This document shows, piece after piece, positions 12,215 through 15,071 of a DNA stretch of 64,000 nt (the first letter of the stretch is position 1; each line of letters starts with the position of its first letter). The notes under the pieces were generated by a model that saw only the letters and a program-made list of their open reading frames with translations, made no database searches and was not told where the DNA came from. The translations under genes were made by a program, and so were the position numbers. Location of the stretch: contig NZ_MCWZ01000277.1 in NCBI RefSeq assembly GCF_002877365.1, positions 1 through 64,000 of the forward strand, written 5' to 3'. This DNA is from Vibrio sp. 10N.261.55.A7. GTDB taxonomy: Bacteria; Pseudomonadota; Gammaproteobacteria; Enterobacterales; Vibrionaceae.

Positions 12215-13441
12215 CTATCCAATAAAACTGATGTAACTTTGAAGAATAATCAGATTAACAATATCAATGAAAAATGCGCCGACAATGGGCACCACCATAA
12301 ACGCCTGTGGTGAAGGGCCGTATTTATTCACCAGCGAGCCCATATTCATCACGGCTGTGGGCGTCGCCCCTAAACCAAACCCACAGTGTCCGCCAGAGAT
12401 GACTGCAGCGTCGTAGTTCGACCCCATCATCTTGAAAGTGACAAAGTAGGCGAACAAGCCCAGTATCACCGATTGAACCGTTAATATAATGAGAAATGGT
12501 ATCGCGAGATCGAAAATATTCCATAGTTTTAGACTCATTAAAGCCATCGCTAAAAACAGAGAGAGCGATACCGTACCTAGTATATCGACCGTCTCGGTAT
12601 CTATTTTGTGTGTCTTGGTCACTTCTAATACATTCGTAATGAACACACCGATGAACAGAGCGTAGACAAAATCAGGGATCATTAGCCAGTCTATGTTGAA
12701 TGTACTGACCCACTGTTCAAGATACTTAGCTCCGGTCACACAGATCAATAACGTAAACAGAACTTCAATCACTTTCTTTGCTGTTACTTTATCTTCTTCA
12801 TATTCATTGTATGTCACTAACTCCGGGAAGCGCTCATGGGTATGTATCCCTGTCCCATATTGAGATTCGAAGCCGTGTTTGGAAATGAGTTTTTGTGCAA
12901 CAGGACTGCCGATGATGCCACCAATGATCAAGCCAAATGTGGCAGATGCCATGGCAATCTCAAGCGTATTTGGCAAACCAAAACTCTCAGAAAACGTTTG
13001 AGACCACGCCGCCCCGGTTCCATGACCACCTGAAAGCGTGATAGAGCCTGCGATCAAGCCCATTAAAGGGTCAAGCCCCAACACGGTCGCTAAACTCACG
13101 CCCACACCATTTTGTATAACAATGTAGATTGACGCTATCGCCAAAAAGATGAAGACCTTAGCGCCACCTTTCATCAACTGAGTGTAATTAGCCGCTAAAC
13201 CAACAGTACTAAAAAACATCAGCATAAATGTATTTTGGAGTGGCAAAGAAAACGTCAAGTCAACGCCATTGAAATGCATAATCGTAATGACAATAGCAAC
13301 GATCAACCCACCAACAATAGGCTCAGGTATGTTGAATTTTCTTAGAACGGGTAGTTTGTTATTAACGAAATGACCTAGAAATAAAACGCTAATCGCGATT
13401 AGGAAAGATTCTAGTGGCCCAACTGAAATTAAATGATTCAT
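12215..13441 (-). CDS. gltS: sodium/glutamate symporter GltS
   Basis: A 408-residue membrane protein with the GltS hallmarks: inverted repeats with GGHGTGAAW near residue 140 and GGHCGFGLGATPTA near residue 350, LRKFNIPEPIVGGLIVA near the N terminus, and about ten membrane segments. It imports glutamate with Na+. The start is ATG. The roughly 300 bases upstream hold its promoter, then the 3' end of the qrr RNA, which is transcribed in the same direction but is closed by its own terminator. Confidence 0.95.
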   Translation of the reverse strand: MNHLISVGPLESFLIAISVLFLGHFVNNKLPVLRKFNIPEPIVGGLIVAIVITIMHFNGVDLTFSLPLQNTFMLMFFSTVGLAANYTQLMKGGAKVFIFLAIASIYIVIQNGVGVSLATVLGLDPLMGLIAGSITLSGGHGTGAAWSQTFSESFGLPNTLEIAMASATFGLIIGGIIGSPVAQKLISKHGFESQYGTGIHTHERFPELVTYNEYEEDKVTAKKVIEVLFTLLICVTGAKYLEQWVSTFNIDWLMIPDFVYALFIGVFITNVLEVTKTHKIDTETVDILGTVSLSLFLAMALMSLKLWNIFDLAIPFLIILTVQSVILGLFAYFVTFKMMGSNYDAAVISGGHCGFGLGATPTAVMNMGSLVNKYGPSPQAFMVVPIVGAFFIDIVNLIILQSYISFIG

Positions 13442-13747: not shown

Positions 13748-13854
13748 AAAAAAAATGGCCAACCGCAAAGGTGCGATTGGCCGATATATAGTGTGAACAA
13801 AATATTCACTAACAACGTCAGTTGGCTAGGTGACCCTCGGCTTAAGAAGGGTCA
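13748..13854 (-). ncRNA. qrr: Qrr quorum-sensing regulatory small RNA
   Basis: The minus strand contains the invariant Qrr core CACCTAGCCAACTGACGTTG, continuing into TTAGTGAA. The 5' end is TGACCCT...AGGGTCA (first stem-loop), then the single-stranded core that pairs with luxR/hapR-type, aphA and luxO mRNAs with Hfq. A GTGAA...TTCAC stem follows, then the terminator GGCCAATCGCA...TGCGGTTGGCC with eight Ts (minus strand, ending near 13748). The +1 falls at 13854, exactly 12 bases past the sigma-54 GC element and on the T of TGACCC, as in known qrr genes. Predicted length is 107 nt, normal for the family. Which numbered Qrr it is cannot be told from sequence alone. Confidence 0.96.
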
Positions 13855-13864
13855 TTACTTTATA

Positions 13865-13880
13865 TGCAGTTAGTGTGCCA
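13865..13880 (-). promoter_or_regulatory. sigma-54 promoter of qrr
   Basis: Minus-strand TGGCACACTAACTGCA has GG and GC separated by exactly ten bases (-24/-12 consensus). It is placed 12 bases from the predicted qrr start. Confidence 0.93.
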
Positions 13881-13952
13881 ACATGTTACATCCAATTTTT
13901 GAGTGTTTGGATCGCAGTTTTTGCGGTTTTTAGGCATAAAACTATACGTTAT

Positions 13953-13994
13953 TTGCATTTCGCATTCGCAAATTGCAACAAAAAGCAAATTGCT
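13953..13994. promoter_or_regulatory. probable LuxO enhancer sites for qrr
   Basis: Two near-copies of the LuxO motif TTGCA-N3-TGCAA lie about 100-125 bases upstream of the qrr start: TTGCATTTCGCA at 13953-13964 and TCGCAAATTGCAA at 13966-13978. The palindrome AGCAAATTGCT follows at 13984-13994. Position and spacing suit a sigma-54 enhancer bound by phospho-LuxO. Motif recall is from memory of the literature. Confidence 0.75.
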
Positions 13995-14150
13995 ATTCCA
14001 TTAATTGCTTATTAACAGGATTAATAATACGAGAATTCATTAGAGTAAAAACTCAGCATCTAGATGCCGCTGCAAGTACTACGTTTTTTTCATACATTTC
14101 CATACCAAGAGTTTGTATACTGCTCCCAACATTTACTACATGACCAAAAC

Positions 14151-15071
14151 ATGAACTATTTCAAAATATTCCTTAAAGGCATGGCAATGGGAGCCGCTGA
14201 TGTCGTCCCAGGCGTATCCGGTGGCACTATCGCATTCATTACTGGCATCTACGACACACTTCTAGAAAGTATCCGCCGCATTAATCCCTCAGTGTTACGC
14301 ATATGGAAACAGCAAGGTTTTTCAGCCGCATTTTCTCACATTAATGGCCTATTTTTGATTGCTCTGTTCGGTGGTGTATTAACCAGTATTGCAACACTCG
14401 CTAAACTCATTTCTTGGCTGCTGGTCACGCACCCAATTCCTCTGTGGTCATTCTTCTTTGGCTTAATCTTGGTGTCGATTTTTCACATCCTCAAACAAAT
14501 CGAACAGCGCTCACTGTCTCGCTTGGTGTTTCTCATTCTTGGGGTAGCCTTTGCTTATAGCATCACTGTTCTTAATCCCTTGCAGCTTGAAGTCACCAAC
14601 GTAAATATTGTTTTGGCTGGTGCGATTGCTATTTGTGCCATGATTCTACCGGGCATTTCGGGTAGCTTCATATTGCTCCTAATTGGCATGTACTCACCGG
14701 TACTTACAGCGGTTAAAGCGGCGCAAATCGATGTTCTTCTGCTGTTTTTAACAGGATGCGTTGTTGGGTTACTGTGTTTCTCGCACTTGTTATCACGACT
14801 ATTGAACTCGTTCCGAGACTTCACGTTGATCTTCTTAACAGGGCTGATGATAGGTACCTTGCCTAAGATTTGGCCTTGGAAAGAAACTCTTTCCTGGAGA
14901 ACTAATTCAAGTGGAGAACAAGTACCGTTAGTTGAGCAAAATCTATCTCCGTTTCAGTTCGAAGCAGTGACCTCTGAGCCTGCACAGTTAGTGCTTTCTA
15001 TTGTCATGATGTTATGCGCAATTGGCTTAGTCCTTGGCCTAGAGAAATTTGCTGACAAAGACAACACCTAA
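14151..15071 (+). CDS. popT: DUF368 undecaprenyl-phosphate translocase PopT
   Basis: A 306-residue polytopic membrane protein. Both DUF368 signature repeats are present: DVVPGVSGGTIAFITGIYD near residue 18 and ILPGISGSFILLLIGMY near residue 165. DUF368 proteins have been shown to return undecaprenyl phosphate to the cytoplasmic face for cell wall and O-antigen synthesis (PopT of V. cholerae). The open frame begins upstream, but the conserved start is the ATG at 14151 (MNYFKIFLKGM). The gene is transcribed away from qrr, whose regulatory sites lie within 200 bases of its start. Confidence 0.9.
   Translation: MNYFKIFLKGMAMGAADVVPGVSGGTIAFITGIYDTLLESIRRINPSVLRIWKQQGFSAAFSHINGLFLIALFGGVLTSIATLAKLISWLLVTHPIPLWSFFFGLILVSIFHILKQIEQRSLSRLVFLILGVAFAYSITVLNPLQLEVTNVNIVLAGAIAICAMILPGISGSFILLLIGMYSPVLTAVKAAQIDVLLLFLTGCVVGLLCFSHLLSRLLNSFRDFTLIFLTGLMIGTLPKIWPWKETLSWRTNSSGEQVPLVEQNLSPFQFEAVTSEPAQLVLSIVMMLCAIGLVLGLEKFADKDNT

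Follow-up and report, generated by a model that had tools for sequence, protein, structure and literature searches.

LuxR and OpaR were reported to bind upstream of qrr2, qrr3 and qrr4 and to activate these genes (PMC3323551). For V. harveyi qrr2, the LuxR-binding site is listed at -165 (PMC3323551, Table 2), and for V. parahaemolyticus qrr2, located in the VPA1623-1624 intergenic region, the same work provides an OpaR footprint upstream of the gene. Concerning LuxO, putative binding sites of the V. fluvialis qrr genes were placed at -89 to -120, with mismatches marked in the corresponding figure (PMC11443567). Furthermore, of two regions required for aphA activation, one was reported to be missing from Qrr1 (PMC3262071).

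The window, i.e., the whole 64-kb stretch of DNA analyzed in this study, contains a qrr gene on the minus strand (13749-13854) that was compared with these described systems. V. harveyi/V. campbellii qrr2 (VIBHAR_04846; locus L049) resembles the window copy in its Qrr family match, its sigma-54 promoter and LuxO-like sites, the presence of a LuxR-type site upstream and the location of popT on the divergent side. The two loci differ in the gene that flanks qrr opposite to popT, which is malT in V. harveyi and gltS in the window, and also in their LuxO-like sites: V. harveyi features three of them at -134, -121 and -101 (the last one being perfect), and the window has a pair at -124 and -111, both imperfect. 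V. parahaemolyticus qrr2 likewise possesses an OpaR-type site upstream, but this published site is without a match of at most two mismatches in the window or in the 114 loci searched.

In total, four qrr genes were found in the genome to which the window belongs. Their neighbors are popT and gltS in the window (both confirmed by family search), a uvrB-like gene (name read from its translation) and luxO (confirmed by family search) at locus L004, ModE-like and AraC-like genes at L001, and genes for an XRE-type regulator and an acetyltransferase-like protein at L003 (the names at the latter two loci were read from translations). In all four copies, GG-N10-GC lies at -25 and is accompanied by one or more LuxO-like sites with no more than two mismatches. 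The copy adjoining luxO, which was taken as qrr1, shares the Qrr core, the sigma-54 promoter and a LuxO-like site with the window copy, but the alignment shows its first stem-loop to be shorter by 8 nt, whereas the popT-linked window copy has the full stem-loop.

To name the window copy, six published LuxR/OpaR sites were searched. The V. harveyi qrr2 LuxR site recurs next to the qrr that is linked to popT in V. harveyi (two mismatches, -165) and was also observed upstream of the popT-linked qrr in Vibrio sp. L051 (two mismatches, -166). The sites of V. harveyi qrr3 and qrr4 and of V. parahaemolyticus qrr2, qrr3 and qrr4 gave no match with at most two mismatches in the 114 loci or the window, and the window's own box deviates from the V. 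harveyi qrr2 LuxR site at more than two positions. Because the V. harveyi qrr2 LuxR site marks the popT-linked qrr of that species, the popT-linked gene was read as qrr2. Based on popT synteny and one published LuxR site of the six searched, the window gene is most likely orthologous to V. harveyi qrr2.

The qrr gene and its promoter

The Rfam Qrr model search proposed as a check in the initial annotation was performed and returned RF00378 at 13749-13854 (minus strand), with 107 bits compared to a gathering score of 50, an E-value of 1.2e-19 and coverage of model positions 1-108 of 108. No other Rfam match in the 64-kb window exceeded its gathering score. A complete Qrr RNA on the minus strand, as annotated initially, is thus present, with a length of 106 nt according to the Rfam match instead of 107 nt. 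The gene is indeed overlooked by protein annotation, as stated earlier, yet Rfam detects it and V. harveyi qrr2 has a gene identifier. The conserved Qrr core CCTAGCCAACTGACGTT, which had also been claimed, was found intact in an alignment of 34 Qrr genes. These genes were used to build the model R1, which scored the window copy, itself one of the 34, with 119.5 bits. Moreover, the RNA is predicted to fold with -38.9 kcal/mol compared to an average of -20.4 for shuffled sequences (z -6.1; 0/200 shuffles as good). The gene's own terminator, likewise annotated before, was recovered by a terminator scan and in the predicted fold as a stem-loop at 13757-13782 (minus strand) followed by a T run.

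Upstream of the gene, a sigma-54 promoter of the form TGGCAC-N6-TGCA (TGGCACACTAACTGCA) with the exact GG-N10-GC spacing described initially is located at 13865-13880 (minus strand) and represents the sole exact match to this pattern in the window. Its GG-N10-GC begins at -25, and the element occupies the identical position in all 28 popT-linked qrr loci (the window and 27 from the best 80 of 576 popT loci).

LuxO-like sites had been noted about 100 bases upstream of qrr and less than 200 bases from popT. Using the pattern TTGCAW3TGCAA, a pair of such sites was predicted on the minus strand at -124 (13966-13978, one mismatch) and -111 (13953-13965, two mismatches), approximately 173-198 bases from the popT ATG (14151), in agreement with both statements. 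Since the number of LuxO-like sites in the window is at chance level (13 compared to 12.7 expected), support for the pair comes from its pairing, placement and conservation. Two LuxO-like sites within 65 bases, one of them with at most one mismatch, are unique to this place, occurring in 40 of 63,935 stretches of the window, all of which cover the qrr spot. Among the 28 popT-linked loci (27 of them from the best 80 of 576), a LuxO site with at most one mismatch precedes qrr in 27; it is perfect in 21 of these orthologous loci, whereas both sites of the window are imperfect. In Vibrio penaeicida (L070:3756-4156), the popT-adjoining qrr has a sigma-54 promoter, and no LuxO-like site with up to two mismatches was found in the 400 bases upstream of the gene.

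The initial annotation also named the neighboring genes correctly. The sodium/glutamate symporter gene gltS (12215-13441, minus strand; PF03616, TIGR00210) follows qrr downstream in the same orientation, and the polyprenyl-phosphate transporter gene popT (14151-15071, plus strand; PF04018, 340.6 bits; NF052564, 493.9 bits) starts with the ATG at 14151. These results confirm 13749-13854 (minus strand) as a real, complete and ordinary qrr gene with a sigma-54/LuxO-type promoter. The locus is of an already known kind, namely a textbook Vibrio qrr2 in its ordinary popT neighborhood.

Control elements between qrr and popT

Apart from the LuxO-like pair, a LuxR/OpaR-type (MQSR) box, which is absent from the initial annotation, was predicted at 14010-14029 (minus strand), corresponding to -175 of qrr. 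The matrix applied was derived from the published sites in Table 2 of PMC3323551 after omission of those belonging to qrr genes. The box obtained a matrix score of 16.5, which 2/200 dinucleotide shuffles also reached. In 16 of the 28 popT-linked loci (the window and 27 from the best 80 of 576), the best LuxR-type box is located at -160 to -180 of qrr compared to approximately 1.8 expected for a uniform distribution, several of these loci being close relatives with one common LuxR-type site. A box better than 5% of shuffles was obtained for only 6/28 of these loci. At the V. harveyi locus, the published LuxR site at -165 reached a score of 7.1 with the reduced matrix, which is lower than that of a site at -194. 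If real, the box at 14010-14029 most likely serves qrr2.

Regulation of popT in addition to qrr by the same box, making popT cell-density controlled via LuxR instead of LuxO, is unlikely. It would be in line with the location of the box, which precedes the predicted popT -10 element by 87-106 bases, with the clustering of the best boxes in 16/28 loci and with the stationary-phase defect described for V. cholerae after loss of VCA0040 (PMC9876793). However, the position of the box is kept relative to qrr, the published action of LuxR/OpaR is on qrr2-4 (PMC3323551), and, as given above, a box better than 5% of shuffles was obtained for only 6/28 linked loci. There is only a slim chance that undecaprenyl-phosphate recycling is subject to quorum-sensing control at the shared qrr2-popT intergenic region via the LuxR/OpaR-type box and not via LuxO; if it were, Vibrio would adjust carrier-lipid recycling as the culture turns dense and alkaline.

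It had further been proposed that LuxO or the qrr promoter could affect popT, and the evidence collected here speaks against this proposal. A -10 element, TATACT, of a sigma-70-like promoter belonging to popT itself was predicted at 14116-14121 (plus strand). A generic sigma-70 promoter scan did not report a popT promoter, and the element was recognized solely by its conservation. The exact hexamer occurs 32-39 bases upstream of popT in 24/28 linked loci, and a CATAC(A/T)TTT block lies near it in 17/28 (the window and 27 from the best 80 of 576). Within the same best 80, TATACT is also present upstream of popT in three of the four Vibrio loci without an adjacent qrr. Vibrio intestinalis (L048) has neither qrr nor gltS at popT, yet the popT core promoter is retained.

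The distance from the LuxO sites to qrr ranges from 82 to 130 bases in the 28 linked loci (27 from the best 80 of 576) compared to 106-464 bases to popT, the latter measured to the popT alignment start, which may be up to about 3 bases off the ATG. For 51 of the 53 loci of the best 80 that lack an adjacent qrr, the 600 bases preceding popT contain no LuxO-like site with one mismatch or fewer; the exceptions are two Shewanella loci (L072, L073) with such a site approximately 400 bases upstream. LuxO is a sigma-54 activator according to its family match, but the interval between qrr and popT contains no sigma-54 element with up to one mismatch that is oriented toward popT, and qrr is transcribed away from popT. 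Because the spacing is kept to qrr, 51 of 53 qrr-less popT loci are without a site and a popT-facing sigma-54 element was not found, we conclude that the predicted LuxO-like sites belong to qrr. In this arrangement, popT is a divergent neighbor with a predicted promoter of its own. Control of popT by the LuxO sites or by qrr transcription itself, which would link undecaprenyl-phosphate recycling to quorum sensing, is therefore very unlikely, although the sites lie less than 200 bases from the popT ATG and popT and qrr are linked in 27 of 31 Vibrio loci (best 80 of 576 popT loci). Moreover, in the literature search no work tying VCA0040 to Qrr or quorum sensing was found.

That the window qrr is a decayed, non-functional copy, as suggested for V. 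harveyi qrr5 (PMC3323551), would fit the imperfect state of both LuxO-like sites but is extremely improbable in view of the full-length Rfam model match, the intact core and the intact promoter and terminator.

Distribution of the qrr-popT neighborhood in Vibrio

In a draw of 148 genomes from the genus, including the window's own genome, at least one Qrr match was detected in 140. Six of them (G068, G073, G085, G111, G112 and G132) showed 7-9 Qrr matches each compared to 1-5 in the other Qrr-carrying genomes of the draw.

For evaluation of the neighborhood, the best 80 of 576 confirmed popT loci, including 30 from named Vibrio and one from a Vibrionaceae MAG, were scanned with R1. Among these 31 Vibrio loci (the MAG included), qrr directly adjoins popT in 27, and no qrr was found beside popT at three loci (L048, L060, L063). 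In Vibrio methylphosphonaticus (L054:7802-7909), a qrr lies approximately 3 kb downstream of popT in different surroundings, and no LuxO-like site was found for it apart from one with two mismatches at -35. Seven popT loci of other Vibrionaceae (five Photobacterium, Grimontia and Salinivibrio) gave no R1 match above 22 bits, and the same was true for the other 42 of the best 80. Twenty weak R1 matches (18.1-26.5 bits), 17 of them on the plus strand and many opposite a true qrr, were considered to be hairpin complements or chance matches and left uncounted.

The gene gltS adjoins qrr in the window and in 12 of the 27 popT-linked loci among the best 80 of 576. Since gltS is found beside qrr in only these 12 loci and is replaced by malT in V. 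harveyi, popT is the more widely kept neighbor. Thus, a qrr2-popT neighborhood that is widely kept in Vibrio, unlike its gltS side, has now been placed in this Vibrio genome.

In practice, the qrr2 control region can be carried along or disturbed when constructs include the native popT promoter or when popT is deleted. In V. metoecus, which is closely related to V. cholerae, the qrr start lies 281 bases before popT (L058:3720-4001). A V. cholerae vca0040 complementation construct was described in which 350 bp of upstream sequence served as the native promoter (PMC9876793); as this length exceeds the 281 bases of the V. metoecus layout, the construct, judged by analogy, may carry the qrr control region together with a cut qrr.

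Partner genes and candidate targets

The regulatory partners of a Qrr RNA were searched for in the window's own genome. LuxO is encoded beside another qrr (L004) and was assigned by NF041946 with 834 bits (cut-off 800). Genes for sigma-54 (rpoN) and Hfq (hfq) are also present, as is a LuxR/HapR homolog (NF040929), for which the best solved chain is LuxR 7amn. The luxR homolog carries AACGTCAATAGGCAAGG, which is complementary to the Qrr core save three positions and ends 10 bases before the ATG. Matches to this pattern with three mismatches numbered 13 in the genome compared to 11 for the reversed control, so that the pattern alone is not significant, and the predicted Qrr-luxR duplex compared with shuffles gave p values of 0.03 for the core alone and of 0.20 and 0.10 with longer Qrr segments. 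The complement in the luxR homolog agrees with the known Qrr mechanism without proving it.

Based on the sequence, predicted structure, promoter geometry, conservation and partner genes observed, we infer expression of the RNA, binding by LuxO and LuxR and regulation of the target. The locus is almost certainly a Vibrio qrr2 encoding a LuxO/sigma-54-driven Qrr RNA that, together with Hfq, would repress the luxR/hapR homolog, with popT as a divergent neighbor. At low cell density, phosphorylated LuxO would bind the paired sites approximately 110-124 bases upstream of qrr and activate sigma-54 polymerase at the -24/-12 promoter, resulting in a Qrr RNA of approximately 106 nt. Together with Hfq, this RNA would pair with the luxR/hapR homolog at its ribosome-binding site and keep the homolog off. 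Furthermore, the intact first stem-loop of the window Qrr would allow action on aphA as well, and the LuxR/OpaR-type box at -175 probably mediates the published feedback on qrr2.

The flanking genes were also considered as pairing partners. Pairing of Qrr with the popT 5' region was rejected, with p values of 0.71, 0.95 and 0.16 depending on which of three Qrr segments was used, and for the gltS start the corresponding comparison with shuffles gave 0.11, 0.46 and 0.42. Within gltS, codons 6-8 (13419-13426) contain TCAGTTGG, which is complementary to the most conserved part of the Qrr core, and these 8 bases are exact in 6/13 qrr-adjoining gltS genes.
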